This document shows positions 3,368-26,229 of a DNA stretch of 64,000 nt, piece after piece (the stretch's first letter is position 1; each line of letters starts with the position of its first letter). The stretch comes from Tritrichomonas musculus. Lineage: Eukaryota > Parabasalia > Tritrichomonadida > Tritrichomonadidae. The notes beneath the pieces are model-generated. The model did no database searches, was not told the origin of the DNA, and saw only the letters and a list, made by a program, of their open reading frames with translations. The translations under genes were made by a program, and so were the position numbers. The DNA lies in assembly GCA_039105265.1 (NCBI GenBank), contig JAPFFF010000001.1, positions 7,316,001 through 7,380,000 of the forward strand. The letters run 5' to 3'.

Positions 3368-3377
3368 TGAATACGAA

Positions 3378-5459: not shown

Positions 5460-5516
5460 TCTTTGAGTTGTGATTAAAAAAAGATTCATGTGAAGTTGTA
5501 TTTTTAGAATTTTAAT

Positions 5517-5879: not shown

Positions 5880-5933
5880 CTTAAATGAGTTCATTGATGA
5901 TTAAATGTGATTGTTTATTTTAATGGACATTAA

Positions 5934-6305: not shown

Positions 6306-6339
6306 ATTGAAGGATGTGCAATTGTGTACAACGTTGATG

Positions 6340-6540
6340 AGATGGAGTAAATGATGTATTTTTGAAGGTTTTTGATGACCGCGTGAAATCGCGCACTCGC
6401 ATTTTCATTAGGATTTTGGGTCCGGACAATTTCGTCCACACCTATTTTTGGATCCATTTTCATTAGGTTTTGATGACCGCGTGATTTCGTCGCACTCGCA
6501 TTTCATTGATGATTTCGATGATGGTTAAATCCGACCACCT
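6340..6540. repeat. Intergenic hairpin repeats (CGCG and GTCCGGAC types)
   Basis: The gap between two same-strand genes contains CGCG-tgaaat-CGCG (6380-6393) followed by CACTCGCATTTTCATT. Next comes GTCCGGAC-aatttc-GTCC near 6420-6437 followed by CACACC, and then a second ...CGCACTCGCATTTCATT copy near 6478-6505. The same two alternative motifs recur at 15,090-15,270. They may act as transcription or replication elements of the Maverick. Confidence 0.6.
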
Positions 6541-6587
6541 TTGCGAGACCTTGTAAAATGAACCAAATTTGAAGGTATTCTATGCTC

Positions 6588-6604
6588 CCGAATTCGGTGA
6601 TGCA
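6588..6604 (+). repeat. Dispersed GAATTC-core palindrome (intergenic copy)
   Basis: CCGAATTCGGTGATGCA is identical over 17 bases to 15844-15860, which lies inside the KilA-N coding sequence. It contains the 10-base palindrome CCGAATTCGG. Confidence 0.6.
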
Positions 6605-6645
6605 GGAAATTAACCTCTAAATCGAACCATTTTAATTGGTTGTAA

Positions 6646-7461: not shown

Positions 7462-7472
7462 TAAGAATATAT

Positions 7473-8642: not shown

Positions 8643-8763
8643 CTTTGTGTCGACATTAAAAATAATGATAACCGATTCTTAAATCAAAATATTTCATTTA
8701 TGAAACCCTTGCATCTATTTGAACAAATTTCTTTCATAACATCAATGCTGGATAAACATGTAC

Positions 8764-9738: not shown

Positions 9739-9798
9739 TTTGGATTAACATTAAATTAATTGAGATGTATAGTGCAAAATAGTTTAACATTAAGATAA

Positions 9799-12700
9799 AT
9801 GACTGCAATATTAACCAAACAAAATGCATTAGATGGAGCCTTGATAGGAGGTTCTGGCAAAGGTGGTGATGGAATATTTGATTCAATTCATGTTAAAGGT
9901 GATGCCACAATCGATGGTAGTTGTAAAATATTCATTGGTGAAGAATATGGTGAACCTCAAAGTGTCAAAGAATGTTTCGAAACATTTGGGAAAGCATTGA
10001 CTGATATAACTAACGACATTCAATCACATCGAACTGTTATCGATACACATGGGACCAAACTTGCTGACCATGAAGATAGAATTTCAACTTTAGAGAATGC
10101 TCCTCCATCTGCTATTGAAAGTGTAATGACTTATGAAGAAGGTTGTGATGAATTCATTATCGATGCAAATAATATCCATAAATTAAGTGATTCGGATTCT
10201 CAGGACAGTTCAACATACAACATTCTTGAGATTGATTACTCTGGATCTGTAAGTGGACAAGTCTTTGAGATCATCTTTCCAAAGAATCTTGAAATTGAGA
10301 ATGCTTATATTTCCTGTGACACCCAAAATAGATTCACAAATCCCATTATTGAATACATCACAGATTCACAAAGCGATTCCAAATATCAATTGAAGTACGT
10401 CAGCAATGAATCAAAACCTCGAATATACATGTCGAAATCTGCAATCTATGACCCATTTGAACTATATACTGATGGATTCATGAAGATCAAATTCGTTGGG
10501 AAAATGCATCAAATTGCAATTATTAAAGAATCACAAAGCGATGGAGGTAACGATACATTAATGAATCTCAAGTGTAATCTCATTGATGCTGACAATTGCT
10601 TCAAACTCTATAGGTCTCCTTTACCTGACTTCTATACAATCAAGTCAATCGGGGATTACAATTTGGATACTGCAAATGGTTTATATTATGCTGACTGGGG
10701 ATATAATCCTGATTCCGATTCATTCAATTCACTCATTGAAGGACAGACATTCGAGCTTCATGATAACGTATTTGGGACTCATTACAAGCTTACTAAATCT
10801 GGAGGTAAATGGATTGGTACCAATTATTGCGTTAACATTCCACTGAAGATGCGTAAAGAGAATTCATATGGATCCTTGAATAGAGACATTCCATACATTT
10901 CAATCAAGAAGAATGCTGCTAACATATTTGCTTTGAAGGGTCTAATCAATTATGAATCCGGGAATCCATTAAAGATGATGCTTGACAAAGGTATGATAAC
11001 ATATAGTTCCAATACTAGAATGGGTGATCCAGATGAAACCAATGATGTCTGGCGTGTATGGTTTGGATGCAATGAAGATAAGAGTGGAGACTATTCTGCT
11101 ACATTAACCCTTGATGGACATACTTATGAATTCGTCATTGGATTCAAATATTCATGGAAGCATGAGCATACATATGAGATCAAAACCGACAACTATTTTG
11201 AATATATCCCTTACCGTTATGAATCATTCATTGAAACAGATTCTGATAATTTGAGAGTTTACATGAAGGCATCACCAGAATTCAACATCCCAATTGATGA
11301 AAATATTGAATACCCAGGTGGCAATACATTCGAGTTTCTTGCTTCAACGGGTTACTATTCTGTATCACCTAGACCGGAATCTTGCACAACATTGATGACA
11401 AACTTCAATATCCAAACATCTGGAATAGTCATTGGAGAGAACATTGAATCACATATCTTTGAATTGAATTCGTTAGGGAATGTTGTTGATATAGCTGTTA
11501 ACGACATATCATCTTTGGAGAAATATTGTAATCGTTTGCAGAAAGAATTTGATGACATGCAACCTAAATTCAGCTGGTTTGATTACATTGCCGGTAAGTT
11601 CGTTAACATTGGATCATCTGTATTTACATTTGGGAAAGTTGGTGCTGGAGATCTATTGCAAATCTCTATTGATGGAATTAAAGGTCTTTCTAAACTATCA
11701 TTTGCCAAAGATGCTGATAAAGATGATGGAATAGAATTAGAAGATATTGATGAAGTCGTTAGAGACAAATCTGTGAATCAATCAAGAGAAATCATTAAAG
11801 AATTGACATATGTCGATACCATCATTGAGATCCCAAATGAGAAATATTGTCACAGATATTATACTGATACATTGAAAGGTACATTAGAAGTTGAAACCAA
11901 AGTGGACAATGAGGGTGAAGTAATCAAGTTAAATACATATTCCATCAATGAAGATAAGAGTTTCACATCAAATGAGTCAACAAATGGGTCACTTTATGAA
12001 ATTACTTTCGAAGATCCATATTTAATGATTATCACCATGGGAAGTCATGAACCATTATCAGTTAGAATCAAGTATACAACCAAAGTTGAGAATTCTGAAT
12101 TAGGTTTAGGTGAAACGTTAACAAATAAGCAATTGATGTCTGCAGCTGCTATCAAGAAACTCATTGAAAACCATAAAACAAATTGGTTGAATGAGATCCC
12201 AAAAATGCCAGAGAATTTGGTTAATGAATCTGTATTGAGTACTGCTTTAGAATCATATGTAAAGAAAGAAGACGTATTATCAACCGAAAATATAACTCAA
12301 GAATTATCAATCACTACGAAATTCGTAAACGGAACAACCAATGATGAAGATAAAAGAACTTATATAACAAATTTGGATAGAGATTTATGCAAAATATTAA
12401 AGAAATCATCATTGATAGTAAAAGGTTCTTGTAATAATGAAGATATTTCAGGAGAATATTTGTATGATAGTGAAGACTCGGAATATTATCATTACAAGAA
12501 AGGTGAAAATACTTTTTCTATATATTATTTCTATTATGGTGGAACATTCAAATATAATGATAACTATGCTGTCGATCTAGAATCAGTATGTTATTCATAC
12601 AAGCTTGAAGTTTATGATGAATATTGTATTCCAAATATGAATTTCGTAAAAACTAATTTTGCATTAAAATCGGATATCCCTGAACCAGTTGACTTGACAC

Positions 12701-14211
12701 CTTATGCACTCAAGACTGATATTCCTACTGTTGATCTAGAACCATATGCCACTAAAACTAATAATATCCCATATGAAGTTGACAGAAAGGATGGTAGTTG
12801 TGCTTTTATATTTAGTTTAGCTAAGACTCCTTTGAATTTCCGTGTAAAAATAGTACTAAGGTGGACAAATTCTGCTAACGAACCAGATTGGGTGGGTATT
12901 ACTGGGGATGTTATAGATGGTACTCTTCAAAATATAGAAGTCCAAAATGCTACTAGCGGTACCAAGAAAAGGTTTACATTCCCGGGGCAACAAGGATATA
13001 CTCAAATTAGGTTAGACACCAGCATTTATTACTGGAAAGATGGTAAAGTCAGATTTTTGAACGTTAATTCCAATTTTTCTGATGAGACTCTCCTAAATTA
13101 TGATCCCAACGAAACATACTTTACAGAATATGTGACTTATGGTGGAGATCTAGAACCTTATGCACTCAAAACTGACATTCCTACTATTGATCTAGAACCT
13201 TATGCATTGAAGACAGATATCCCAGAACCAGTTGACTTGACACCATATTACACTAGTGCCCAGGCGGATGAGAAGTTCGTTGATGAAGATGAATTGGCTT
13301 ATGAATTAGATAAGTATGAGACCAAGGATGTGGCTGAAGGCAAATATGCATTGCAGTCGAATGTTGTTACAGATGAGCAGCTAATAAAAAGATGTGCCAT
13401 TGATTGCAGTTCAATTACGGAGGGGTCCTCGGATATATCAATTCGTTATCTAAAACTTGTAGATAAGGTGATTCAACTGGAATACATAGTAGGTGAATAT
13501 GCCCTATGTTGTGAAATAAGGGTGTTATTCCGTGATACAGATGGAAATCCCCATAACATAGTAATAGTATTACATCAGAGGACCGTGTATTTCGACAATT
13601 TCAAATTCCCACTATATTATGAAGAAACTGTTGATATAACATCAAGTCCACTTACATATAACTTCCCAATAGGTGGATATCCCTGGACAACTACTCAGGA
13701 ATTATTAGATGCTAGACAACTATATTCAAGACAAATCATGTCCCGAAAGTATTTAGCGAAATTTAAGGGTGTAATGTATGGTACATCCAACACAACCATC
13801 ACTCATTACTGTCCAATCGAAGCTGGTCAAAATATATCTGATTTCGTTGCAGGAAAGCCTGTATTCATGAGTGGACATGTATATAAATATGTTAACGGAT
13901 CCTTCATTAGTTCCACTGCTAACGATTCAACTGATTGCATTTGTAGTGTAGTAATCAATGGATCCTATAAAGAGTTCGTTGGAGTGATTACAGAAGTGGA
14001 TGCTGAAAATGGATGTATCAAATTTGCTTCTCATGGAGACATGTTATTCACAGTTGATGATTCAAATCTCTATCAAATTGGTGACGTAATTCTCTATAAC
14101 GGAAAGATCTTGGATGCTGAATATGCCATGACTTTACGAATCCAGCAATCAATCGTTGGAAAGGTTACTGCAAAAATAAATGAAACGACTCTTTCTCTAT
14201 TCAAATCCTAA
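9799..14211 (+). CDS. Fibre-like protein with phage-type tail-fibre repeats
   Basis: This 1470-residue protein is the largest structural-type gene of Maverick-1. The N-terminal 60 residues are Gly-rich, followed by a coiled-coil segment (about 65-100). The middle is a long beta-rich region. At about residues 960-990 and 1118-1190 there are YALKTDIP / VDLTPY / DLEPY repeats and YYTSAQADEKFVDEDEL, which strongly resemble the trimeric linker repeats of bacteriophage tail fibres. The C-terminal 130 residues form a compact domain (FVGVITEVD, FASHGDMLF, IGDVILYNGK, SIVGKVT). Such proteins usually trimerise and bind receptors or surfaces. Attachment of a Maverick virion is an inference. No membrane segment or signal peptide is seen. 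It is the only fibre gene in the window. Confidence 0.8.
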   Translation: MTAILTKQNALDGALIGGSGKGGDGIFDSIHVKGDATIDGSCKIFIGEEYGEPQSVKECFETFGKALTDITNDIQSHRTVIDTHGTKLADHEDRISTLENAPPSAIESVMTYEEGCDEFIIDANNIHKLSDSDSQDSSTYNILEIDYSGSVSGQVFEIIFPKNLEIENAYISCDTQNRFTNPIIEYITDSQSDSKYQLKYVSNESKPRIYMSKSAIYDPFELYTDGFMKIKFVGKMHQIAIIKESQSDGGNDTLMNLKCNLIDADNCFKLYRSPLPDFYTIKSIGDYNLDTANGLYYADWGYNPDSDSFNSLIEGQTFELHDNVFGTHYKLTKSGGKWIGTNYCVNIPLKMRKENSYGSLNRDIPYISIKKNAANIFALKGLINYESGNPLKMMLDKGMITYSSNTRMGDPDETNDVWRVWFGCNEDKSGDYSATLTLDGHTYEFVIGFKYSWKHEHTYEIKTDNYFEYIPYRYESFIETDSDNLRVYMKASPEFNIPIDENIEYPGGNTFEFLASTGYYSVSPRPESCTTLMTNFNIQTSGIVIGENIESHIFELNSLGNVVDIAVNDISSLEKYCNRLQKEFDDMQPKFSWFDYIAGKFVNIGSSVFTFGKVGAGDLLQISIDGIKGLSKLSFAKDADKDDGIELEDIDEVVRDKSVNQSREIIKELTYVDTIIEIPNEKYCHRYYTDTLKGTLEVETKVDNEGEVIKLNTYSINEDKSFTSNESTNGSLYEITFEDPYLMIITMGSHEPLSVRIKYTTKVENSELGLGETLTNKQLMSAAAIKKLIENHKTNWLNEIPKMPENLVNESVLSTALESYVKKEDVLSTENITQELSITTKFVNGTTNDEDKRTYITNLDRDLCKILKKSSLIVKGSCNNEDISGEYLYDSEDSEYYHYKKGENTFSIYYFYYGGTFKYNDNYAVDLESVCYSYKLEVYDEYCIPNMNFVKTNFALKSDIPEPVDLTPYALKTDIPTVDLEPYATKTNNIPYEVDRKDGSCAFIFSLAKTPLNFRVKIVLRWTNSANEPDWVGITGDVIDGTLQNIEVQNATSGTKKRFTFPGQQGYTQIRLDTSIYYWKDGKVRFLNVNSNFSDETLLNYDPNETYFTEYVTYGGDLEPYALKTDIPTIDLEPYALKTDIPEPVDLTPYYTSAQADEKFVDEDELAYELDKYETKDVAEGKYALQSNVVTDEQLIKRCAIDCSSITEGSSDISIRYLKLVDKVIQLEYIVGEYALCCEIRVLFRDTDGNPHNIVIVLHQRTVYFDNFKFPLYYEETVDITSSPLTYNFPIGGYPWTTTQELLDARQLYSRQIMSRKYLAKFKGVMYGTSNTTITHYCPIEAGQNISDFVAGKPVFMSGHVYKYVNGSFISSTANDSTDCICSVVINGSYKEFVGVITEVDAENGCIKFASHGDMLFTVDDSNLYQIGDVILYNGKILDAEYAMTLRIQQSIVGKVTAKINETTLSLFKS

Positions 14212-14346
14212 AAACAAAAAACCAAAAACCGTTCCCAGGTGGAGATGTAGTGCATTCAAAATCAGTAACGGACCGGTCCTTGGAGGAAACATATATGTAT
14301 CTCCACCTGAGAACAGAAGAAGAAGAAAGAATTCCGTATATGACCT
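14212..14346. other. Downstream region of fibre gene with long-range hairpin
   Basis: CAGGTGGAGAT (14236-14246) pairs with ATCTCCACCTG (14299-14309), an 11-base stem with a 52-base loop just after the fibre stop codon. It could end or stabilise the fibre transcript. Confidence 0.4.
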
Positions 14347-14528
14347 TTCTTTCACCCTAGCACGACCGGAACGCATTAGCGAACATCGTCTAGATGTGGA
14401 ACCATTATAACTCTTCTTTCAACCTAGCACGACCGGAACGCATTAGCGAACATCATCTAGATGTGGAATTATAATGGCTCTTCTTTCAACCTAGCACGAC
14501 CGGAACGCATTAGCGAACATCATCTAGG
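14347..14528. repeat. Three tandem repeats of 67-69 bp
   Basis: The unit beginning TTTCAMCCTAGCACGACCGG, followed by a GCATTAGCGAACAT stretch and CATCTAG, starts at 14347, 14416 and 14483. The copies are nearly identical and GC-richer than the surroundings. The repeats lie in the large non-coding block between the fibre and KilA-N genes. An iteron-like, regulatory or recombination role is possible; none is shown. Confidence 0.85.
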
Positions 14529-14584
14529 GACAAGATCATATACGGAACCTCTCAGAAGAATATGAAGAATTTTACAAATAAAAA

Positions 14585-14657
14585 CGGCCCATAGCAGAAT
14601 CGAACCAGGTACTCCGGATTACCATGGATACGACTTACCACTGAGCCGTGTCTGGCC
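14585..14657 (-). tRNA. tRNA-like sequence, degenerate
   Basis: The minus strand has a 73-base tRNA-length segment. Its A-box-like CGGCTCAGTGG and B-box-like GGTTCGATTCT are correctly spaced, and a TTTTT Pol III-type terminator (14580-14584) follows immediately. The D arm pairs CGGC/GTCG and the T loop is TTCGATT. The acceptor stem keeps only GGCC/GGCC plus a wobble, the T stem keeps three pairs, and the anticodon arm is not canonical, so no identity is given. It may be a decayed tRNA, a tRNA-derived small RNA or chance. It lies within the Maverick-1 non-coding block. Confidence 0.35.
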
Positions 14658-15009
14658 AGACATCAACATGAGTCCATATAGGGATTTATTTTTAAGAGAG
14701 TGTCACTTTTTGGCTTGGAGACGCTAACTCAGTATAGGAAGCAGATAGAGCGGTTTTGACGATAGATTTGGGATATCGTTTTCGACGGTTATAAGGTCAA
14801 TTCAATTCACCTTAACCGCCAAGGTCAAATTATTTCACCTTCCCCAGATATGGAAAAACATAGGATTTTGGCACCAATTTTCAGAAGACCATATCTCAAC
14901 GAATACTCAATCAATTTCGACGAATCACATATCAAATTAAAGCGCAGATAATGTAGAATCTAAATATCATTTTAGAAGTAAATTTGATGAACCAGAAGTA
15001 GTGTATTTG
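14658..15009. other. Non-coding block of Maverick-1
   Basis: I see no open frame of note and no RNA gene that I can support. The segment links the tRNA-like sequence to the repeats downstream of the KilA-N gene. It contains GTTATAAGGTCAATTCAATT followed by CACCTTAACCGCCAAGG, weak internal repeats only. Confidence 0.3.
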
Positions 15010-15330
15010 AGGTTCATTTTAGGTATCGATTTTGAAGAGCTAGAAGTATGTGTTTCCAAACATTCATTTTAGGTATCGATTTTGAATGGTAAAGTGGTCC
15101 GCGTAAAATCGCGCACTCGCATTTTCATTGATGATTTCGATGATTTTCAAAAACATTGATGAAACCATTCATTTTAGGTCTGATTTTGAAGAGTCAGAAA
15201 CAAGTGTTTCCAAACATTCATTTTAGGTATCGATTTTGAATGGTAAAGTGGTCCGGACAATTTCGTCCACACCCATTTTCATTGATGATTTCGATGATTT
15301 TCAAACTCATTGGTGAAACCATTCATTTTA
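15010..15330. repeat. Tandem repeats with alternating hairpin motifs
   Basis: AGGTATCGATTTTGAA recurs at 15021, 15071 and 15225. The unit GGTATCGATTTTGAATGGTA starts at 15072 and 15226, giving a 154-bp period. In the first unit it leads to GTCCGCG-taaaat-CGCGCACTCGC, in the second to GTCCGGAC-aatttc-GTCCACACC. These are the same two hairpin types seen at 6,380-6,500. Both are followed by CATTTTCATTGATGATTTCG. The block ends at the stop of the KilA-N gene. Confidence 0.75.
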
Positions 15331-15340
15331 ACGCTAATCG

Positions 15341-16075
15341 TTAGTATTGAAATTCTGGGTAATACGTTGGAATGAACCATTTCCAATCAGATTCTAGTTT
15401 AGCTTTAGATTCATTTAATTGTTTCTTTAATGTTGTATCATTAGGGTTTGCATTTAATTGTTGCTTGATTGAGTTGTACTTATCGATGTCACTTTTGAGA
15501 TCATCTTGTTCATATTGATCCAATCTATGTACATCATCTCTGAAACCCCAGCATTGACCATTAACTAAATCAACATCGATCTTCAATGTAATTCGTTTAG
15601 CAACTTCTTTAAAGATTGGTTTAGAATTCTCAACTGTGTCTTGTAAATGATTCTTCTCAAGGACATCGTGGACTTTGTCGTTAATGGAATCCATGATCTT
15701 TCCAACACTAATTGCATACGTTGGTGATGCCCAGAAAGCTATATAATTGATTAATCTAGGGTCCACATACGTACCTCTTAATTCGTTCTCTTTGATCGAA
15801 AATCCGTTGTTTAATTCGTAAATCGGCTGTTTTTGTTGCCCCTCCGAATTCGGTGATGCATAGAATTCCTTCAAAAACGCATCAAAATATTCGTTCCAGG
15901 ATTTGTTCTCTTTGAGCTTATAAAATCGTTTGTTAAACTGATTATACATTGCTGTGGCATTGATAAAACCATCTTTATCATGAACCAAGACAGATATACC
16001 GTTATAGGTTCCATAAGTGAATGTTTCACCAGATGCTGTTGTAATTGTTTTGGTTGATGGTTTGCTATTGTTCAT
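15341..16075 (-). CDS. KilA-N domain DNA-binding protein
   Basis: The 244-residue protein has the KilA-N signature: DGFINATAMYNQF (about 35-47), then ELRGTYVDPRLINYIAFWAS (about 97-116) followed by PTYAISVGKIMDSIN. KilA-N domains bind DNA and are typical of large DNA viruses, phages and trichomonad repeats of viral origin. A charged helical C-terminus (about 185-244) may oligomerise. The gene is the distal member of a minus-strand group (KilA-N, 232-residue protein, HNH, small basic protein). A 17-base palindromic repeat (15844-15860), identical to an intergenic copy at 6588-6604, is embedded in the frame. A regulatory role in element expression is an inference. Confidence 0.88.
   Translation of the reverse strand: MNNSKPSTKTITTASGETFTYGTYNGISVLVHDKDGFINATAMYNQFNKRFYKLKENKSWNEYFDAFLKEFYASPNSEGQQKQPIYELNNGFSIKENELRGTYVDPRLINYIAFWASPTYAISVGKIMDSINDKVHDVLEKNHLQDTVENSKPIFKEVAKRITLKIDVDLVNGQCWGFRDDVHRLDQYEQDDLKSDIDKYNSIKQQLNANPNDTTLKKQLNESKAKLESDWKWFIPTYYPEFQY
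15844..15860 (+). repeat. GAATTC-core palindrome embedded in the KilA-N gene
   Basis: These 17 bases are identical to the intergenic copy at 6588-6604. They encode part of an Ser/Asn/Glu-rich surface-loop-like stretch (ASPNSEGQQKQ), consistent with an in-frame insertion in a tolerant site. Confidence 0.6.
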
Positions 16076-16155
16076 ATTGTTTCGTTGAAGTTAAAAAGTA
16101 AAATTAAATAAAAATAGACTTGTTTACATGAACCAAATTTGAAGGCATTCGCTTC

Positions 16156-16171
16156 CCTCGGAATTCCGAGG
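16156..16171. repeat. Perfect 16-base GAATTC-core palindrome
   Basis: CCTCGGAATTCCGAGG lies 9 bases downstream of the stop of the 232-residue gene. Its partner with different arms (GGTCGGAATTCCGACC) lies at 26160-26175. The core is the same while both arms changed in a paired way. Confidence 0.7.
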
Positions 16172-16179
16172 TACCCATT

Positions 16180-16878
16180 TCAACATACCATCTTCAACGA
16201 TATACCATACTTGATGAACTGTGAATAGATAACATTGTATGCATATTTAAGGTCTTCAGTCTTCCCACCTTTAGTGACCAATATCTTTGAAACATAGATT
16301 ATCTTACCTGAACTTGCACCACAACCACCGCATCCAACGTCTTCATCCAATACCAACTCAACTTTCTCACATCCAGTCAAAATCTTAATCATGTCCATCA
16401 ACAGCTTGCTCTCACAAACTAGATATGAATTAACTTTCAAAGGATTCGATTCATAAGCCTCAATGATCATCTTCAAGAATTGATTCTGCTTACCAAGTTC
16501 ATCTAACTCATTTCCGAGATCTGCAATTCCTTTGTCTTGAACCATATTGGATTGGAAAGGACTGTTCGTTTGAGGTTGAAATGCTAATGGAGATCCCTGT
16601 GTCATCTGAGAATTGATAGTTTGTCCAGCCTCTTGAGAACTCATTTGAGGGTTCGGAATAGTAAAATTTACGTTTTGTGGAGCAAATATTCTTTCAGAAT
16701 TATTGTTTAATGGTTCAACGTTTGGATATAACGGTACCGTTGATGGTCTTCTTTCAGGATGGACATGTTGATTTGTTTGAGGTTTGATGTCAATGTTTAC
16801 ATTAGTCTCTTGCTCTTGTTTGATAGTGTTGTCCGTTTCAGAGCTTAATATTCTTGCTTGTCTAAGTGTTCCTGCCAT
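16180..16878 (-). CDS. Conserved Maverick protein, ARILSSE family
   Basis: This 232-residue protein is homologous to the 190-residue protein at 29685-30257. Both start with KARILSSE/QARILSSE, share QNVNFTIP in a Pro/Gln-rich disordered region, and have (I/F)ADLGNELD. The conserved C-terminal domain contains NPLKVNSY(L/V)VC, LLMDMIK(I/L)LT and a clustered Cys segment (GCGGCGASS here, GCCVAS there). The C-terminal domain (about 130-232) is likely a folded alpha/beta unit. The gene is on the minus strand in Maverick-1 but the plus strand in the second element, so the gene moved or flipped while the family was kept. Function unknown; presence in both elements argues for a core role, perhaps virion assembly. 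Confidence 0.8.
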   Translation of the reverse strand: MAGTLRQARILSSETDNTIKQEQETNVNIDIKPQTNQHVHPERRPSTVPLYPNVEPLNNNSERIFAPQNVNFTIPNPQMSSQEAGQTINSQMTQGSPLAFQPQTNSPFQSNMVQDKGIADLGNELDELGKQNQFLKMIIEAYESNPLKVNSYLVCESKLLMDMIKILTGCEKVELVLDEDVGCGGCGASSGKIIYVSKILVTKGGKTEDLKYAYNVIYSQFIKYGISLKMVC

Positions 16879-16913
16879 TTACATTGACAAAAAAAATGTA
16901 TTGATTGGTTCAT

Positions 16914-17513
16914 TTATATCACGTCATGCTGTTGTTTAAACTTAGATACATACATACTGCATTTTCTGTTATCAATGTCACGCAAATTAACAACAGGCAA
17001 ATTGTTTTTGTCGATACAAATGTGCATTTTCTTATATATGTTTTCTGATATGAATACATAAAATTCGTCATTATCTACATCATAAAAGTATTTATTATCT
17101 TCAAATTCATAATAAGAATACTTGGATTGATAATAATCAACCTTTATAATATTATCTGGAAGTTCATCAACAAAATCATACATAATACCATTAGCAGAAG
17201 AACGATTTTCAAGATTTTTAGATGGTGTTACCCATCGAAGATTTGTTAAATGATTATCAATTCTATCTTTATTTAGATGATCTACTTGTGTTTTATGATT
17301 TGGATCATCATTTTCAATGAATTGTAATGCAATAAGTTTATGTTTATCGTGCAATCCATCATTTAATTTGACTGTTATGTAACCCATTCCACGTTTAAAC
17401 TCTTCAACAACTATATGATCATCTTTATTTCTGATGTCAAATGGATATTCCGTACAGATCTCATATTCATTTTCAAAATCCTTCAATGGAACAAACTTTG
17501 ATTCTTTATTCAT
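16914..17513 (-). CDS. HNH homing-type endonuclease (NUMOD4-like plus HNH)
   Basis: I chose the ATG at 17511-17513 (MNKESKF) over an upstream one because it removes an unrelated hydrophobic leader and the overlap with the next gene. The 199-residue protein has an N-terminal NUMOD4-like module (FENEYEICTEYPFDI). The HNH core follows: TQVDHLNKDRIDNHLTNLRW, then VTPSKN. A C-terminal domain ends SKFKQQHDVI. HNH enzymes nick or cleave DNA and often act as homing endonucleases. The interrupted gene at 2855-3024/25707-26229 is a paralogue in the other Maverick. All expected H/N motif residues appear present, so it may be active. Confidence 0.88.
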   Translation of the reverse strand: MNKESKFVPLKDFENEYEICTEYPFDIRNKDDHIVVEEFKRGMGYITVKLNDGLHDKHKLIALQFIENDDPNHKTQVDHLNKDRIDNHLTNLRWVTPSKNLENRSSANGIMYDFVDELPDNIIKVDYYQSKYSYYEFEDNKYFYDVDNDEFYVFISENIYKKMHICIDKNNLPVVNLRDIDNRKCSMYVSKFKQQHDVI

Positions 17514-17574
17514 GAAACTTATTTGTATTAAAGTAAAAATATTAAATTCAAATTTATTTGAACATAATTGATAT

Positions 17575-17877
17575 TTAAATGTATCTATTGGCAACAGCTC
17601 TAGTCAACAGTTTACGTACTTTCATGTTATGTTCATATTTAGCTTTAATGATTTGACGTTTACGAAGCTTCTTTTCATCTGTCGGCTCTGGTTGACTCAA
17701 GACTCTTCTATAATATTGCAACCTTGAATTGATCAACTTCAACGTATTCGTAGCAAAACTCTTCCTTTCATGCCTCTTCTTCAAAGGAGGTAAAGTGAAT
17801 TCATCACCTGATTCATTAACTGATCCATTAACTGATCTATTCATACTATTTAGTATCTGATAAAAAATTACTTTCAT
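17575..17877 (-). CDS. Small basic Maverick protein, unknown
   Basis: This 100-residue protein is strongly Lys/Arg-rich from about residue 30 (PPLKKRHERKSF, KKLRKRQIIKAKYEHNMKVRK). An alternative start at residue 12 (MNRSVNGS, base 17844) would remove a short hydrophobic leader; I cannot decide. It sits between HNH and the divergent integrase gene with a 41-base gap. The composition suggests nucleic-acid binding. A short protein beside integrase and polymerase could in principle be the DNA-bound primer protein, but no evidence distinguishes this. Confidence 0.6.
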   Translation of the reverse strand: MKVIFYQILNSMNRSVNGSVNESGDEFTLPPLKKRHERKSFATNTLKLINSRLQYYRRVLSQPEPTDEKKLRKRQIIKAKYEHNMKVRKLLTRAVANRYI

Positions 17878-17918
17878 TAAATAATTATCATCTATAGTTT
17901 AATTTAATATCATCCTAA

Positions 17919-19667
17919 ATGAACAAAATCTTATTTCAAAACGTTGAACGAATTTGTGAATACCTCAAAGACAGAATCAAAGGATACCAAAACACAATCT
18001 TCCATGGAGAGTTAATATTCCACCGTCAACGTAAACCTGATGAATCTGATCTACCATTCATTAACGACATCTTATCGGATCATTCTAAATGCCAATCATT
18101 CATCATCTCAAACATCCATAATTGGTACACACTATTCCATAATCGTAATCCAAACTCTCCATCTCCACCCATTGACGAAACCATTCTAAACAACTTCATT
18201 TCAGTTCATTCAGACACACTATTCAAAACAGTCATCAATGAATCCAATAGAATCAAATCCAAAATCGAAGACATCCAACATCAAATCGAACAAAACCGAC
18301 AATCAACTCTACGTATAGCCAGACAATTAATTGACGACAAAGTAAAGAACAATAAACGTAAATCATCTCGATCAGTCTTTGACAATTATGAACTCATTTC
18401 CCGTCTAAGTCAATCCGATAAAGACATTCTCTGGAACGAATACCTTCAGAAATGGTCATCTAAGAATTCCTCAACTCAACCCTCAACTCGACCCAAATTA
18501 ACCAATACCTTTAACGATAAACTCAATGAATATGTCGTTTACAATCATGATAAGCTTCTAACTCTCGATGAATTCATTAAAGTAACTCGTGGATGGCCCC
18601 ATACAACCAAACCCATTGAAGACTGGTACGAAACGTATACCCACAAGTTCTATCATCAATCAGGAACCTTTGTTGAATACCAAGAAACACCTTCATTCAA
18701 CACCATTGCATTCAAATCACCAGACAAGATCAAAGCTTTACAATCCATCTATCCAACCAAATCATCAATCATTTCTGATACCACATCCTACTTTCCATTA
18801 AAGCAAAACCTAAAGAAATACCAATTACACAAAGTTTCTAAACGTTACACATACTTGATTGATCTAATGTTCGTTGACAAGTTATGCTATCTGATTGCCA
18901 TTAACGTAAACACAAGATACCTCTTTGCTGGTCTCATGAACAACATAGTATTCAATGAAAACGATACCGATGAAGATAAAGCTAAACGTTTCTCCAAAGC
19001 ATCCAAGAACACACCTACATATCTCCGTACTCTTGATCGTTTAATTCAATCAGGAATGAAAGTCAAATACCTATCTGGTGATGGAGAGAGTGCTTTCGAT
19101 TCATATGATGCATGGTCTTTCTATACCAATCATGGAATAACTTTCACTGAAGTACCTCGAATGCAAATGGGTCACTATCCAGATTTCATGAAACGTGAAC
19201 AAAAACAAGTAAAGACAGATCCAATGCACGGTTCACTAGGAATCATCGATCGAGTCATTAGAACTATCCGTGACATGGCATACAACATGCAAGAAGGTAT
19301 CATTACTCCATCGGTCATGGACGAAATCGTTAATCAATACAACAATGCCCCACATCAAACGTTGTCCAAATATGCTGGTTTCAAAGTTAGTCCAAAGATG
19401 GCTCAAGAAGATCCAGACCTTGAAGAGTTCATCGTTAAACGTATTTCTCAAGAGAACTTTAAAATCATGTCTCAACCGGGTTTCCACTTAGAACCAAACA
19501 CTCCTGTCAAACTTTACAATGAACATGATAGCCTCATGAAACGTAGATCAATAATCCAACCAGGAAATCATCAAATAGTTGGTTTCAAGAATGGCCTTTA
19601 CGAAGTCAAAGATGACAAAAATAGAACTCAATTGATACCTCGATATAAGGTCTCAACAATCATTTAA
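17919..19667 (+). CDS. Maverick retrovirus-like integrase
   Basis: The 582-residue protein has a long N-terminal region (1-300) and a DDE-type catalytic core. LIDLMFVD holds the first Asp (D315), YLSGDGESAF the second (D388), and the third position falls in GSLGIIDRVIRTIRD, where the usual catalytic Glu is Asp (D444). The C-terminus (RTQLIPRYKVSTII) is chromodomain/SH3-like, as in Maverick c-integrases. The enzyme joins element ends to target DNA and makes 6-bp duplications, matching the TACGTA flanks. It is convergent with the polymerase gene, the two stops 11 bases apart. The frame is intact. The Asp substitution may be lineage-specific or reduce activity. Confidence 0.9.
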   Translation: MNKILFQNVERICEYLKDRIKGYQNTIFHGELIFHRQRKPDESDLPFINDILSDHSKCQSFIISNIHNWYTLFHNRNPNSPSPPIDETILNNFISVHSDTLFKTVINESNRIKSKIEDIQHQIEQNRQSTLRIARQLIDDKVKNNKRKSSRSVFDNYELISRLSQSDKDILWNEYLQKWSSKNSSTQPSTRPKLTNTFNDKLNEYVVYNHDKLLTLDEFIKVTRGWPHTTKPIEDWYETYTHKFYHQSGTFVEYQETPSFNTIAFKSPDKIKALQSIYPTKSSIISDTTSYFPLKQNLKKYQLHKVSKRYTYLIDLMFVDKLCYLIAINVNTRYLFAGLMNNIVFNENDTDEDKAKRFSKASKNTPTYLRTLDRLIQSGMKVKYLSGDGESAFDSYDAWSFYTNHGITFTEVPRMQMGHYPDFMKREQKQVKTDPMHGSLGIIDRVIRTIRDMAYNMQEGIITPSVMDEIVNQYNNAPHQTLSKYAGFKVSPKMAQEDPDLEEFIVKRISQENFKIMSQPGFHLEPNTPVKLYNEHDSLMKRRSIIQPGNHQIVGFKNGLYEVKDDKNRTQLIPRYKVSTII

Positions 19668-19678
19668 ACGAATTCCCT

Positions 19679-22600
19679 CTAAATGGATTCATTAACGTAA
19701 TATCTATTGTTATATAAACGAATTATTTTTCTCAAAACATTAATGTGTGTATGCTTATCCAAACAGTTATCCTTCACCTCATCGAAGTTCATCATTGCTT
19801 TATCACTCAAATTACATTTACTCAAAACCATATCATAAGCCTTCTCACGATTCTTTGGTGAAAGACAATTGATAGCACAAAACAATGGCATTAACGACAA
19901 CCTCTCATCAATCTTTGATGCAAAGTTATGAACTTCCATACCAGTCAAACCATTAACTAACTTCATCTCATCATCATCACTGAGATACTCAATTGGTTCG
20001 TTAAATGAATCATCAACTGCACCCCTTTGCTTTGCATCTAACTTCAACGTCAACTCTAAATCCTTCAACACATCCTTAGCTGATCTCTTAATGACTGATT
20101 CAAAACTACCTCTAACGAACTCATACTTACCGTTTGCATTGAATGAACCAGGTAACATCACACCAGCCTGCTTATCTTCCCTCACAGCAGCAATGTAATC
20201 AATCTCATACTCATCACATGCATAGCATTTAATGTAAGCATTCTTGTACAATTCATCGAAATCATTATTGACATACACATGCAATCCACCACTACCTGAC
20301 CTAACAACAATATCATCTATGGACAACTTACTCATGACTCTCTCTCGGATCTTCTTACGTTCATCATCAGAGAGACCTTTATTGATATCGAAATCGATTA
20401 CCCCTAAACCAAAACATTCATTGACATTCAACCTCATTCCTGTCTGTTTACTCAAGAACTTATCACAAACGCCAACACCCTTAAATGATCCATATTTGAG
20501 ATTGTTAAACGTCATCATGAAATGATTCTCAAAACGTTTTCTCAATGATCTATCCTTAACCGATTCCCTTAATGATTCAATCAAACCACTCATCAATTCA
20601 CGATCAGCTAACAATGGATCAATCTCGCTTTCATCAATACCCAACAATTCATCAACATTGGACTTTAAACACAAACTCTTAGCATTAACATAATCGTCAC
20701 CATTAGCTTTCTGCTGTTTACCATACCATTCAACATCACCCTCTTCATATGTCACTTTGATTTTCCTTTCAAACTTCTTTAATGTTGAAACAGTCATGTC
20801 TTTGTTCATTGAAAAGCATGGTTGACCTTTCGTTAAATCAAACGTATACTCATTCCCCTCATACAAATGTTTATACAACTCCATCACATTGCCGTTGAAC
20901 TGTTTATCCCTAAACGCATATTGAATTGACTTCTGAGTCAAACCCTTTCCACGAATAACATAATCGATTTCATTTGAGGAATCAGTAATTTTGTGTACAT
21001 ACATCTTCTTCATGAGGAAGTAAGCTTCAACAGAAAATGGCATTTCATCATGACCATTAATTGACGGAAAGTCACAATGGAAGTTTCCTAAGTTAGTACC
21101 AATGAGATCACGATTGTATCTTTCTTTAAAACCTTTTTCGAGAATCTCTAAATCAGAACGCTTAATCATAAATGAATCAGTATCTTGATAGTATATACAA
21201 CAACCGATATCGAAAGCCAAACACATAACTTCATTCATGATTCTCTTTGACATAGACAATACTTGAATACCCAATAACGAAAAGTTAAAGTGTTTATCAA
21301 TTGGTTTCAACGTCTTCACTGCATGATTATCAGTACCTTTAAGGCTATTATCTTCAACGATCTTGTAATAGTTCTTCTTCCAATATCTATCTAACTCTTC
21401 ACCTTCATGGAAATACTTAAAGTCTTTCTCAATTGGTCTCTCAATCGTCTTCCCATAGCAAGAATTCATGATCAACTTATAGAGTTGTTGTAAAGGATTA
21501 CCACTCTTCTTATACTCCAAACGTTTGCTAAAGATATTCCTTATCTCTTTCTGTATCGTGTAATCTTTCTTGCCATTCCAATAGTACCCTCTCACTAACT
21601 TGAACTCTATCTCTTGAAACTTAATCAAATCCTCAAGCATGATGTTATCGACAGTCATCTTAACAACCTCTCCATCCTTCAAATTATCATCATTCAAATT
21701 CAAACCGTCAACCTTCCTAACAATCAACGGAAACGGATAATGTTTATTCACTTTCGTTATCTCAATATCGACAACATATGCCGACTGTTTTGAGAGAAAT
21801 TCGTAATTAAGTTTATCTTCTGTTATCACTATCGGCCTCCCTTCAACTGTATACAATCTCGCCATTGCTGATGGATATAAACTAACCGCATCGAAATCAC
21901 ACAAAGGTACCGTTGTATGCCATTTCTTATTGTAAGCCGTCATGCATCTACCTCCATATATAGCCCTTGAGCAAAACTTTCTAACGACTCCACCTAACTC
22001 AAACAAATTACGATTAGGATAATAGACCCTTTGCTTAAACACTTCATTAGCCAAAGACGATATCGAAATGAACTTAAACGGATCAATATCGAAATCCTCA
22101 ATGAAACCATTCCTGAATTTATTAAAGCCTTCTCTCAAAATATTCACATCTTGCTGACAATAAAATGAACAATACTTCCACATATCAAAATGGTCGTCAT
22201 CAATCCTACATCCATCGATACCATCTATGTTCTCCTTAAATACATTCATCTGCTCATCTGTCCATGGTTCAACCTCAAACAATCCCGCTTCCGAAATCAC
22301 ACCAACACCACCTCTATTCAACCTATCCAAAGTGTAATAGTTATACGGAAACAACTCTTTCTTGATACCTTTAATGTCAAACATCTTTGGTAACTCTGAC
22401 AACTTACATGATAATACCGGAAGTGTATCCTTGAAATGAATTACCTTTCCATTAAACCTTACATCAGCCATCATCGTCTTCGTACCTTTAATGATTGATT
22501 TAATGATACCGTTATACATCGTCTTCTTGACCTTCTTACTTCCAACCTTAACGTTGTCCTCATACGTACCCGTTGGACGAATCATCCTGATATCATAAGC

Positions 22601-24802
22601 CAAGTTATGAAAGTACACAACAGCACCATCAGGTAAATAGTTCAATAGATCTTTATCGCAACCTTCACCTCTAAACTCTTTCTTAATCTTCCCGTTATCC
22701 TTATGCAAAACACACATGAATGGTCTATGGTACTCCTCTGAAGTATCAGCTTCAAAGTCCGCATACCAGTACGTAGGTGGTACTTTCTTTGGTTCACCCT
22801 TAACTGGTTTCTTCTCAAATGGAGCCATCAAACGAGTGCAATATTTGGAATTGTAAGTGAGATCCGTTATCTCTTCATTAAGTAAATCATTATAGAAAAC
22901 CGTATTCAAAACACTATTCTGACCGTAAGTGATTGGTCTAAAGTAATTTTGCTTAAACAATTCTCTAACTAAATTCGAAGAAGTAATGAAATAACGACCC
23001 TTTCGCCAATGATCTACAAGCCATTCCTTATTGTATTTATCATCATCACACTCACCTAAATGCTTAATGTAATACGTACTGAACTCCGTCTTCTCTTCAA
23101 TGAAGTAATGCTTCTGATATATGTTAAAGTGATGTGTTCTATTTGATTCAGCTTCATCAACACCCATGTAACATTTACGCTTACCTTCACTCGTTGATTC
23201 AACTGATTTCTTTTTGTTTTTGCTAACTGCATTCTCATCAATGTACGTTAACTTGATATGTATACCGAATTCCATACACAATTCATTAATAGAACTCTGA
23301 GACAAATACCTATTTCGAATCCTCAAACGAATCTTGTCCAACGTATCTTTATCGTAACATCCAGTTTGCTCTAACGCATACACAAAGCAACAATCATTTA
23401 ATTCTCTTCTCTGCTTACCCTTTCCATCCACCAACGAATCAAATATCTGCAACCTCTTAAGATATTCAACAACCCTTTTCGGAACCGTCTCCTTCGTCAG
23501 ATATTGAAAGAAAGAACCACCCCTATCGTTATTCCCTCCCTTGTTCTCAAACAAACAGAACTTAAGTGCTGAAAACAATGACCATGTTGGCAACTCTTCA
23601 CCTCCATTCTCATAGAAAAATTCTGGAGCCTTACTTTCAAGATCAAACACAAAATTCTCTTCCGTAAAGTTTTCCATCAATTTATTGAATGTCTCTGGCT
23701 TTAACGGTAACGACTTCCATGTACCATTAACATTAAATTGAATCTTATACATCTGTATTATCGGTAATTTCGCAATTGTATCTTCAAAGAACTCCTTCAA
23801 TCTCGGAAACAACAATCGTCTACCTTCATTGTTAAGTGCTTCGAAATTGATTTCCCAATTGTATGGACTTAACTCCAATCTTTCCATGATATCATCAACT
23901 AACTGCTTTTGTTTACCCTTATTTGCTTTCCATTCATCAAACGTTATCTTGTTCCTTTCATTGATTTCTTTTGGTGTAGCATTCATGATTTCCATAGCTT
24001 CAACTCTTTTCTTATTCCTCAACGCATCTTCCGTCTTCCAAAATTCACGAAAATCCTTAGCATGCTCCTTAATCGAATCCAAAGTTGATTTATCTCTTCT
24101 GTGTATCAAACGATCAAACCTTGAAGCCCTCTCACTCTTGCCTTCATCCACATGAACTCTATATCTATCTCTATCGAATTTCTTAAAGAATTCATCATCT
24201 TCTTTTCGTTTATATTCATCACTATCGACATACCTCTTTGGTTCTTTGTTTAACTTTGGTGGTAATGGTTTCAGTAATGGTTTATTCTTAATCATTTCAT
24301 TCAACGCTTTCGTATAATTCTTAACACTTTCGCCAAACATATACATATTATCATAATCACCATCACCTTCATAACCCATACCAATTATCGTATATGCTAT
24401 CATTCTTGCCAATGGTTCAACGGCTCGTTCAGGATCCTCATCAGCTTTAACGAGGATGTCATCCATCTCCTTCTCAGTAATGCCAATCACAAACGCCAAA
24501 TCAACCAAATGCCCAAAACCATCATCACCTTTACTCTTACACATTTCGCTCAACGCCTTCGTATAATTATAAACCCTTTCCGCAAACCTATGCATATTAT
24601 CGTAATCATCATCACCTTTGTAACCCATGCCAAGTATCGTTTCCGATATCCATAACACCAATGGCTCAATGAGTCGTTCAGGTGCACCTTCAGCATTAAC
24701 GAGAATGTCATCCATCTCATCATCCCTCATTCCAAGCATCAACGCCAAATCAAACAAATCAATAAAAGAATGTTCATCTAAAGCATTATTACCATCACTC
24801 AT
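19679..24802 (-). CDS. Family B DNA polymerase fused to an archaeo-eukaryotic primase-like domain
   Basis: A 1707-residue protein. Residues 9-165 hold two copies of an about 80-residue module (EMDDILV, ER..EPL, I.GMGY.GD.DYDNM, NYTKAL). LLKPLPPKLNKEPKRYV follows. A CFVYALEQTG region precedes the exonuclease at about 460-600. Exonuclease motifs: YADFEAD (about 682), FHNLAYD (736), YCQQDVNI. Polymerase motifs: DFDAVSLYPS (about 970), NSCYGKT (1114), YYQDTDSF (1206), KGLTQKS. The C-terminal 270 residues contain GVIDFDIN (1471), RSGSGGLHVYV (1506), EIDYIA (1534) and MLPGSFNANGKY, the DxD / sGxGxH / hD pattern of archaeo-eukaryotic primases. It lies at the right end, its N-terminus 53 bases from the terminal repeat. 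It replicates the element; the primase could start synthesis de novo. All key residues appear intact. Confidence 0.9.
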   Translation of the reverse strand: MSDGNNALDEHSFIDLFDLALMLGMRDDEMDDILVNAEGAPERLIEPLVLWISETILGMGYKGDDDYDNMHRFAERVYNYTKALSEMCKSKGDDGFGHLVDLAFVIGITEKEMDDILVKADEDPERAVEPLARMIAYTIIGMGYEGDGDYDNMYMFGESVKNYTKALNEMIKNKPLLKPLPPKLNKEPKRYVDSDEYKRKEDDEFFKKFDRDRYRVHVDEGKSERASRFDRLIHRRDKSTLDSIKEHAKDFREFWKTEDALRNKKRVEAMEIMNATPKEINERNKITFDEWKANKGKQKQLVDDIMERLELSPYNWEINFEALNNEGRRLLFPRLKEFFEDTIAKLPIIQMYKIQFNVNGTWKSLPLKPETFNKLMENFTEENFVFDLESKAPEFFYENGGEELPTWSLFSALKFCLFENKGGNNDRGGSFFQYLTKETVPKRVVEYLKRLQIFDSLVDGKGKQRRELNDCCFVYALEQTGCYDKDTLDKIRLRIRNRYLSQSSINELCMEFGIHIKLTYIDENAVSKNKKKSVESTSEGKRKCYMGVDEAESNRTHHFNIYQKHYFIEEKTEFSTYYIKHLGECDDDKYNKEWLVDHWRKGRYFITSSNLVRELFKQNYFRPITYGQNSVLNTVFYNDLLNEEITDLTYNSKYCTRLMAPFEKKPVKGEPKKVPPTYWYADFEADTSEEYHRPFMCVLHKDNGKIKKEFRGEGCDKDLLNYLPDGAVVYFHNLAYDIRMIRPTGTYEDNVKVGSKKVKKTMYNGIIKSIIKGTKTMMADVRFNGKVIHFKDTLPVLSCKLSELPKMFDIKGIKKELFPYNYYTLDRLNRGGVGVISEAGLFEVEPWTDEQMNVFKENIDGIDGCRIDDDHFDMWKYCSFYCQQDVNILREGFNKFRNGFIEDFDIDPFKFISISSLANEVFKQRVYYPNRNLFELGGVVRKFCSRAIYGGRCMTAYNKKWHTTVPLCDFDAVSLYPSAMARLYTVEGRPIVITEDKLNYEFLSKQSAYVVDIEITKVNKHYPFPLIVRKVDGLNLNDDNLKDGEVVKMTVDNIMLEDLIKFQEIEFKLVRGYYWNGKKDYTIQKEIRNIFSKRLEYKKSGNPLQQLYKLIMNSCYGKTIERPIEKDFKYFHEGEELDRYWKKNYYKIVEDNSLKGTDNHAVKTLKPIDKHFNFSLLGIQVLSMSKRIMNEVMCLAFDIGCCIYYQDTDSFMIKRSDLEILEKGFKERYNRDLIGTNLGNFHCDFPSINGHDEMPFSVEAYFLMKKMYVHKITDSSNEIDYVIRGKGLTQKSIQYAFRDKQFNGNVMELYKHLYEGNEYTFDLTKGQPCFSMNKDMTVSTLKKFERKIKVTYEEGDVEWYGKQQKANGDDYVNAKSLCLKSNVDELLGIDESEIDPLLADRELMSGLIESLRESVKDRSLRKRFENHFMMTFNNLKYGSFKGVGVCDKFLSKQTGMRLNVNECFGLGVIDFDINKGLSDDERKKIRERVMSKLSIDDIVVRSGSGGLHVYVNNDFDELYKNAYIKCYACDEYEIDYIAAVREDKQAGVMLPGSFNANGKYEFVRGSFESVIKRSAKDVLKDLELTLKLDAKQRGAVDDSFNEPIEYLSDDDEMKLVNGLTGMEVHNFASKIDERLSLMPLFCAINCLSPKNREKAYDMVLSKCNLSDKAMMNFDEVKDNCLDKHTHINVLRKIIRLYNNRYYVNESI

Positions 24803-24854
24803 CTTATTTTATGTCAAATAAAAATATTATAAAAGATATCCAAAGGCCATCGTT

Positions 24855-25706
24855 TTAAATTTTCACATCATCTCAGACCACTTTATCGCAAAACTTATGA
24901 TCCCTAACTGCCCCTTCCAACCCTTCAAATCAACCCCCTCATCCCCACCTCCAAGACCTCCGGTGATTTTAGACCTAACTTCCCAGACCTTCACTTTCGA
25001 ATCAATTCTCAAGGATCACATAAATTCATCTCCAACCCTTCATTCCCGAATCCAATCTGAACTCCATAAACACCCAATTCTTAACACCAACTCAGCAACG
25101 GGAATCATTAACGAATTCATTCAAACAACAATTTAGTTTCTTTCTCAATTCGTTTTTCAGTCACTTTTGGTCTCAATGATGGTAATTCTAGCTTATTCAT
25201 TTTCTCAATTCTCTTCATGAATCTATCTGTAACAACAATCGTGTCTCGATAATCATACATTTTAGAAAATGCCTCATATTCATCAGGAATGAAACTGTAT
25301 ATGACTGACCTTGTTGCTTTATTTCTACATGAGCCATCTAGTTTTCGGCTTTTCCATGAACCATCATCTTTCGCAAAGTACCAATAGAATGATCTCTCAC
25401 TTGGACTAAAGAAGTAATATCTATGCTTATACGTATGACCGCAATGACTCATTAACCTCTTTACATCCGCTGGCATCACCCCCTCGACAACTTTCAATCC
25501 ATCGAAATCGTCTTCATGAACGTATTTCGTCTTCGTTTCCATTTAAATTCTCACTAAAATTTATATTTTGAAATATTTTTGATTCAATATCTTAATGTTA
25601 CCAGCTACGGGAATCGTTAAGGATTTCTCAAGGTTTTCAAGAGAATCCTTCAAATGAACCATGAAAGTGGGGAGTTTAGACCGAAGGTCTAAAATCACCT
25701 CTTTTA
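24855..25706. repeat. Maverick-1 right terminal inverted repeat (852 bp, with 509-bp extra segment)
   Basis: The outer 105 bp (25602-25706) and inner 257 bp (24855-25111) match the left repeat. Between them is a segment absent from the left end. It is bracketed by 19-base imperfect direct repeats (25093-25111 and 25602-25620, TTAAYGATTCCCGTWGCTG when read inward on the minus strand). The extra segment carries the 141-residue gene at 25117-25542. Either the left repeat lost it by recombination between the 19-base repeats, or the right repeat gained it. Confidence 0.9.
25117..25542 (-). CDS. Protein encoded within the right terminal repeat, unknown
   Basis: This 141-residue protein lies wholly inside the extra segment of the right terminal repeat, reading inward. 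It has VVEGVMPADVKRLMSHCGHT near the start and Tyr/Phe-rich strands in the middle (YYFFSPSERSFYWYF). A charged tail follows. No signal or membrane segment and no family recognised. If ancestral repeats were symmetrical, this gene once existed in two copies, as sometimes happens with genes in long terminal repeats of viruses. The 113-residue gene just inside the left repeat might be a distant relative; I cannot demonstrate it. Confidence 0.55.
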   Translation of the reverse strand: METKTKYVHEDDFDGLKVVEGVMPADVKRLMSHCGHTYKHRYYFFSPSERSFYWYFAKDDGSWKSRKLDGSCRNKATRSVIYSFIPDEYEAFSKMYDYRDTIVVTDRFMKRIEKMNKLELPSLRPKVTEKRIEKETKLLFE

Positions 25707-26229
25707 TACGTAGTTTGTTTTCATCATCATGATAATAATAGTACTTATTGTCTTCAAATTCATGGTGTTCAGTTCTTGTATTATAAAATAACACTTTAAT
25801 TGCTTCTTCTGGTAGATCATCAATAAACTCATATTGAACACCTCGATGAGATGATTTATTAAAATTGTTTTGGGAAGCTGTGCACCATCTGAGATTCTCT
25901 AAATGATAATCAGTTTTGTTGTGGTTAATATGGTCAACACATTGAAAATTATCTGGATTATCAAGAAATTGTTTTGCAATAAGAATGTGTTTTAAATAAT
26001 TTTGTCTATTTAAGACAACAACAACATAACCATTATTGACGCGTTCAGATATAATATATTTATCTCTTATTCTTCGAATTGTGAATGGAAATTCTTTTAG
26101 TATCTCATAATCATCGTGTTCTTTTAATGGTTCCCATCGTGTATCACTATTTTTTGGTAGGTCGGAATTCCGACCAACTGTATTTTCATTTTGTTCAACA
26201 TGATTATCAGCTTGCGTAGTGCTGGTCAT
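25707..26229 (-). pseudogene. HNH endonuclease, N-terminal part, severed by Maverick-1
   Basis: The segment encodes about 174 residues from MTSTTQADNH. It includes a NUMOD4-like module (DDYEILKEFPFTI), an HNH core (CVDHINHNKTDYHLENLRW) followed by CTASQNN, and FEDNKYYYYHDDEN, where Maverick-1 interrupts it at the TACGTA duplication. The open frame continues by chance into the terminal repeat and stops at 25561, giving a chimeric tail. The C-terminal piece is at 2855-3024. The recipient gene is a paralogue of 16914-17513. A palindrome (26160-26175) lies in frame in its N-terminal disordered region. Confidence 0.88.
26160..26175. repeat. Perfect 16-base palindrome inside the split HNH gene
   Basis: GGTCGGAATTCCGACC encodes part of the low-complexity N-terminus (VGRNSDLP). 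It shares the CGGAATTCCG core with 16156-16171 but has different, still complementary outer arms. GGTCGGAATTCCG also occurs at 2774-2786. Confidence 0.7.

Follow-up and report, generated by a model that had tools for sequence, protein, structure and literature searches.

The fusion gene and its C-terminal AEP domain

The 64,000-nucleotide stretch of the Tritrichomonas musculus genome analysed here (contig JAPFFF010000001.1; hereinafter the window) carries a Maverick/Polinton element of 22,698 bp (3017..25714), recognized by its terminal inverted repeats, a target duplication, an A32-type packaging ATPase, and a protein-primed family-B DNA polymerase (pPolB). The ends of the element are intact: the left inverted repeat (3017..3367, plus strand) is 97–99% complementary to the right arm (24855..25714, minus strand), which consists of two parts (24855-25118 and 25602-25714) with an insert of about 0.5 kb between them. 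The repeats are about 350 bp long, and direct reading of the sequence shows the 5-bp target duplication TTGTT at 3012-3016 and 25715-25719. These repeats and the duplication bear out the Maverick setting that a preliminary description had assigned to the locus. The polymerase gene (19679..24802, minus strand) is a single uninterrupted open reading frame (ORF), 5.1 kb open, which codes for a 1707-aa protein with N-terminal repeats, a terminal-protein (TP)-like domain, a vOTU domain, an exonuclease, a pPolB palm, an archaeo-eukaryotic primase (AEP) domain, and a helical tail, in this order. We refer to it as P0001 and to its database relatives as P0002 onward.

A Pfam scan of the protein called DNA_pol_B_2 at residues 722-1155 (E 6.4e-37), left the C-terminal domain uncalled, and returned no helicase family. 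Together with the Exo and Pol motif residues, this places the exonuclease and palm at residues ~660-1372 (20687..22825, minus strand). After a linker (residues ~1372-1408) follows the region homologous to other such tails, the AEP (primase-polymerase) domain with its helical C-terminal part (residues 1408-1707; 19682..20581, minus strand), whose last stretch (residues 1607-1707; 19682..19984, minus strand) is a candidate accessory domain of the PriCT/HBD-like kind; AEPs depend on a helical domain of this sort (PriCT, HBD, aHD, or PriL) to synthesize primers. The preliminary description had placed the AEP at 19679..21000; the domain is present, and its homology is confined to 19682-20581, about two-thirds of that interval, the remainder being linker and the end of the polymerase.

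The motifs from which the domain was first proposed, GVIDFDIN, RSGSGGLHVYV, EIDYIA, and MLPGSFNANGKY, do follow one another in the uninterrupted ORF 19679-24802 of the minus strand. AEPs are marked by hhDhD (motif I), sxH (motif II), and hD (motif III) in that order, and the sequence has the three acids and the histidine in the order I-II-III. VIDFDIN (D1470, D1472; 20381..20401, minus strand) aligns over LDFE of pRN1 ORF904, in which the second acid is E and not D as here, and SGSGGLHVYV (H1508; 20270..20299, minus strand) aligns over the pRN1 GGIHIYV. EIDYIA (D1535; 20189..20206, minus strand) qualifies as motif III by its conservation, order, and spacing, the histidine of motif II lying 27 residues from the motif III acid here and 26 in pRN1. 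In an alignment of 17 tails, D1470, D1472, H1508, and D1535 are each kept in 16/16 rows with letters at the position, at tail identities as low as 25%. Profile-profile comparison of the tail with five pRN1-type primases using hhalign gave a score of 48.6 (E 1.2e-5). Sixty column-shuffled profiles reached no more than 21.8, and 11 windows taken from the protein's own polymerase no more than 22.1. The alignment with the primases spans motifs I and II only and thus supports these two at the residue level. An AlphaFold2 model of the tail (pLDDT 76, pTM 0.55) has a predicted RRM-like catalytic core matching solved AEPs, and matches AEP PrimPols at the fold level: the first 17 rows of a Foldseek search against the PDB are AEPs, four of these with E ≤ 0.001. 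The structure prediction thus came out on the side of an AEP and not of an unrelated fold.

Sequence searches with the tail alone against Pfam, PHROGs, and PDB sequences gave no match above cut-off: the best Pfam match was LigD_Prim-Pol (E 0.2-0.25), and HMMER searches of PDB sequences were not significant (E 0.44 and 1.1). Hence it is the motifs, the profile-profile comparison, and the fold that identify the domain as an AEP. A search of the tail region against 5.8 billion proteins, counting fusion proteins at E ≤ 0.001, retrieved three: P0002 (1707 aa), the representative of a 14-member cluster, which is 98% identical to the window protein over its whole length, and P0003 (1882 aa) and P0004 (1938 aa), which are 52-53% identical to it in the tail. 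As the cluster's representative has the same length, the relatives reach 52-53%, hhalign rises above its controls, and the fold matches, the tail is not a product of chance. We consider it very improbable that it is some other RRM-like fold with a coincidental order of motifs. On sequence and modeled structure, these data confirm an AEP-family domain fused to a Maverick PolB, as first proposed; it is presumably catalytically active and may make primers.

Searching with the tail alignment further recovered ten shorter proteins, P0005-P0014, several of which (P0005, P0006, and P0007 among them) we read as probable C-terminal pieces of such polymerases. P0008, labelled Helicobacter typhlonius, likely comes from a contaminating contig. 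P0013 and P0014, labelled Streblomastix strix, differ at the N-terminus and appear to be AEP-like proteins that stand alone; P0014 continues with sequence resembling the window's putative integrase, so that in this organism the AEP may be a separate Maverick gene. Neither the tail or its relatives nor the polymerase part was confirmed in viral_contigs, no relative was confirmed in genome_contigs, and none was confirmed in the phage collection searched with the whole protein by tblastn. A zinc site considered in the tail (C1526, C1529) was rejected: C1529 is not conserved, e.g., in P0007 and in P0024 and P0026, two relatives introduced below.

Probable protein-priming parts of the same chain

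N-terminal to the AEP, the chain appears to keep the parts of a protein-primed replicase. The TP-like domain (residues ~316-417; 23552..23857, minus strand) is delineated on a predicted model of residues 275-640 (AlphaFold2, pLDDT 85), whose strand/helix order resembles the published description of Polinton TPs, which are related there to little-finger/PAD domains (PMC11071308). Ranks 2-7 of a Foldseek search with this model are Y-family polymerases, including an isolated little-finger domain (E 0.13), the others being no stronger; the 50 VIA-align rows for the same model list no Y-family polymerase, so that the likeness of the TP to the little finger is a Foldseek result. Y397 is the candidate linking residue; its column holds Y in 66 and S in 20 of 103 letters (86/103 Y/S). 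On this weak structural evidence, we tentatively infer that the domain works as a terminal protein. Within the N-terminus of the gene there is also a tandem duplication, 78% identical between 24281-24510 and 24530-24759.

The adjoining vOTU cysteine-protease-like domain (residues ~434-576; 23075..23503, minus strand) keeps its Cys and His (C472 and H565) in 121/121 rows. The motif residues of the exonuclease and polymerase are conserved as well, with D682, E684, N733, Y881, D885, D969, D971, K1109, N1113, D1207, and D1209 each present in 121/121 rows, and D737, K1265, K1266, and Y1268 each in 120/121; motifs A and B lie 138 residues apart, and B and C about 90. Since the TP-like domain (on weak evidence), a vOTU with intact Cys and His, the exonuclease, and the palm are all kept, the primase domain looks like an addition to a pPolB.

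The preliminary description had suggested that this lineage either primes with nucleotides or uses a mixed strategy. Because the protein-priming parts appear to be retained, i.e., the vOTU dyad, the Exo and Pol residues, and, less surely, the TP-like domain, the mixed strategy is the better fit and priming by nucleotides instead fits less well. A takeover of initiation by the AEP, with the N-terminal terminal-protein machinery as a leftover, would accord with an AEP that looks complete, with the weak assignment of the TP, and with the precedent of other Preplasmiviricota that, according to PMC11071308, replaced pPolB by AEP-helicase proteins. We nevertheless regard it as quite improbable, given the invariant vOTU dyad, the well-modeled 275-640 region, and the near-identity of the element's terminal inverted repeats. 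Moreover, in two tail-bearing relatives, P0024 and P0026, the alignment to P0001 begins as early as residue 157-158; a third, P0059, is uninformative on the TP because its predicted protein begins only at residue 468.

Distribution of the tail and its genomic surroundings

Searching with the polymerase part yielded 1799 relatives, from the best 120 of which we derived the distribution of the tail. Four carry it, P0002, P0024, P0026, and P0059, the last three having come from this search and not being among the matches of the tail-region search. Most of the others stop shortly past the last polymerase motif and a few are visibly truncated; since gene prediction may also have split off tails, the 116/120 without one is an upper bound for its absence. 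As most close relatives do without it, the tail is not needed for Maverick replication.

The two remaining fusion proteins, P0003 and P0004, are 57% identical to each other and constitute a second PolB family (B), distinct from that of the window protein (A). Pfam does not recognize either as a polymerase, and the best match between the families in the exonuclease/polymerase part, among the two hits listed per pair, is 24% over 173 residues (E 0.006); the N-terminal parts match better (up to E 1e-8, 272 residues, 23%). Ten columns are invariant in all 123 aligned sequences including P0003 and P0004, namely C472, D682, E684, D885, D969, D971, K1109, N1113, Y1116, and G1117. Against this divergence, the tails are 40-55% identical between families A and B, and 41-58% within family A when the near-identical P0001/P0002 pair is excluded; the window's own tail and those of family B are 52-55% identical. 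In a 50-row tree of family A, the pattern of tail presence takes four changes to explain, of which well-supported branches impose three. The tree tests do not decide, so that a transfer of the tail between the families rests on the identity contrast, of which horizontal transfer would be the simplest reading. The tail thus probably moves as a C-terminal cassette between Maverick PolB families, the trees being no proof.

Between P0001 and P0002 the tail is 96% identical and the polymerase part 98.5%, so that the tail is the less constrained of the two. This faster divergence between near-identical copies, and the many listed relatives with no tail, are what one would expect if the tail were catalytically idle, i.e., a DNA-binding or structural remnant, or were decaying in an endogenous element. 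We give that little credence, as the four catalytic residues persist in every row with letters there, down to the lowest identities, the 5.1-kb ORF is open, and the representative of the 14-member cluster is just as long.

The two polymerase families also meet within the window. Pieces of family-B PolBs, 45-58% identical to P0003 and P0004, flank the element on both sides, at 1-2130 and at 32074-33936 (both minus strand), the right one in a truncated 877-aa ORF; both families therefore live in one genome. By eye, an HNH-like Cys-rich stretch (CxxC...DRI(D/N)N...CxxC) is seen in the exonuclease-motif A interval of P0003, P0004, and the window's 32035-34668, and was unseen in family A.

Beside its polymerase, the element codes for an A32-like packaging ATPase of 271 aa (6646..7461, plus strand; Pfam Pox_A32 E 1.6e-6, above the cut-off; phrog terminase E 9.4e-9) and, on position and sequence reading, a putative DDE integrase of 582 aa (17919..19667, plus strand). 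The latter has no Pfam match and weak matches elsewhere (phrog_95 integrase E 0.012; Streblomastix P0014 E 1.5e-4), its DDE residues being judged by eye. A 573-aa ORF (3768..5489, minus strand) is the probable major capsid protein; it has no family match, and its putative role is suggested by 34-38% homology to a 680-aa ORF of the neighboring element (26354-28396, minus strand). That capsid-like ORF in turn suggests a second Maverick directly adjoining the first. A Metamonada capsid group has been reported (PMC10120064); together with the Streblomastix relatives it suggests a metamonad host. No protease gene was recognized in the scanned ORFs of the window. Pfam further identifies a KilA-N protein and an HNH protein in the element; one HNH_3 ORF (16914-17594) lies inside it and another (25561-26229, minus strand) spans its end at 25714, so that an HNH gene may have been its insertion site. 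A 1470-aa ORF (9799-14211, plus strand) has no Pfam match and no P-loop motif, its PHROG matches (E 0.03-0.09) being of unknown function. The insert in the right inverted repeat (25093-25627, ~0.5 kb) contains a 141-aa ORF (25117-25542) without a family match, and ~26 bp of the inverted repeat are duplicated around it. Among the host genes to the right of the element are a full-length match to IFT57 and a partial match to Nop16, both in single ORFs, which indicates a eukaryote with cilia or flagella and, in this region, few introns. Trichomonad genes have a promoter motif of which one form is TCAYTWYTCA; it has four matches in the whole window and none within 50 bases upstream of the 29 ORFs listed, so that this motif does not by itself assign the host to the trichomonads.

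Known replicases and a proposed mode of replication

The AEPs of pRN1 ORF904, the phage NrS-1 PrimPol, and the CRISPR-associated Prim-Pol are not known to be attached to a PolB. The closest precedent is GP55 of Lactococcus phage 1706, in which a helicase, an AEP, a helical domain, and a PolB form one chain; its AEP makes RNA primers, its PolB elongates them, and the helical domain adjacent to the AEP is required (PMC12205980). We infer that GP55 belongs to the HelPrimPolB group, whose PolBs have been assigned to the EpsilonN-like clade (PMC7544198). The window protein resembles GP55 in combining AEP and PolB in one polypeptide, and may share with it a helical domain adjoining the AEP; however, GP55 and the HelPrimPolB group have helicase and AEP N-terminal to PolB, an arrangement not found in the window protein, which has its AEP at the C-terminus, lacks a fused helicase, and is built on a polymerase of the protein-primed Polinton type. 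Likewise, the four domains listed for GP55 include neither a TP nor a vOTU, whereas the window protein has a vOTU and, on weak evidence, a TP-like domain. Profile similarity of the AEP to one GP55 sequence is weak (hhalign E 0.0065, probability 5.8). With the Polinton pPolB, described as TP-vOTU-EXO-PALM (PMC11071308), the protein has the catalytic residues in common and, to the extent that the models reveal it, the order of the N-terminal domains; the portion of that description available to us does not mention an AEP tail. Polinton-like viruses and virophages of the same virus phylum also have fused replication modules, such as AEP-S3H, PolA-S3H, and pPolB-S1H, with SF1H-pPolB in OmPLV (PMC11071308, PMC12721341, PMC12220804), and some use AEPs. 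In the accessible portions of these accounts, either an AEP joined to a helicase replaces pPolB or pPolB itself carries the helicase, and a union of AEP and pPolB is not described; open-access literature searches aimed at such a fusion, seeing sources in part, found no AEP on a protein-primed PolB. The AEP-PolB fusion as such has a precedent in phage GP55 (PMC12205980); an AEP on a protein-primed PolB would be new as far as these searches go.

We somewhat favor the reading that this single chain is a Maverick replicase combining two priming systems, its AEP tail being an optional, mobile cassette. At the inverted-repeat ends, the N-terminal terminal-protein domain would serve as the primer of DNA synthesis; the vOTU would release that domain, and the pPolB would copy the element by strand displacement. 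The C-terminal AEP, by analogy with GP55, would make short primers de novo on a single-stranded template, most likely the displaced strand, or else stalled or broken replication intermediates, and would pass them on to the polymerase of its own chain. The tail would be optional and would move between Maverick PolB families as a C-terminal cassette. It is this analogy that gives the AEP a primer role on displaced or stalled strands. The chief rival assigns the same active site another task: the tail would be an active nucleotidyl transferase or polymerase of the LigD or PrimPol type, employed mainly in gap filling, lesion bypass, or end joining and less in starting strands. This is a serious, if unlikely, alternative.

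Several observations weigh against two priming systems on a mobile cassette. No helicase is fused, unlike in GP55, and this lack, the sporadic distribution of the tail (its absence from 116/120 close relatives, some visibly truncated), and its slightly faster divergence from P0002 also speak against the tail being essential. Confidence in the tail model is only moderate, TM-scores lying no higher than 0.21-0.40 for the first 16 AEP rows, and among 50 rows listed from a viral structure library 34 are named, of which 10 have helicase, ATPase, integrase, or other non-primase names. At the N-terminus, rank 1 of the Foldseek search with the 275-640 model is a de novo design (E 0.083), and the TP matches are individually insignificant. 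As to the cassette, a single origin of the tail in family A is not rejected (p-AU 0.0501 with five rows, 0.17 with four), and the tail tree leaves the families unresolved, separate A and B tail clades not being rejected either (p-AU 0.13); we therefore claim no counted number of gains. A bolder version, which we hold with more doubt than belief, is that one replicase combines two unrelated initiation chemistries, using a protein primer at the genome ends and making nucleotide primers de novo at other sites, that its nucleotide-priming half is exchanged as a cassette between unrelated Maverick polymerases of one host genome, and that these elements thereby alternate between a transposon-like and a virus-like mode of replication.

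Starting DNA synthesis from a protein and starting it from primase-made primers are usually regarded as alternatives. A pPolB that has an AEP, with its TP and protease domains apparently kept, is a possible intermediate for the exchange of pPolB for AEP-helicase proteins, and the route of that exchange becomes assayable with a single protein. One tail shared by two such dissimilar polymerases, with their families adjoining in one genome, would be a clear example of Mavericks exchanging modules.
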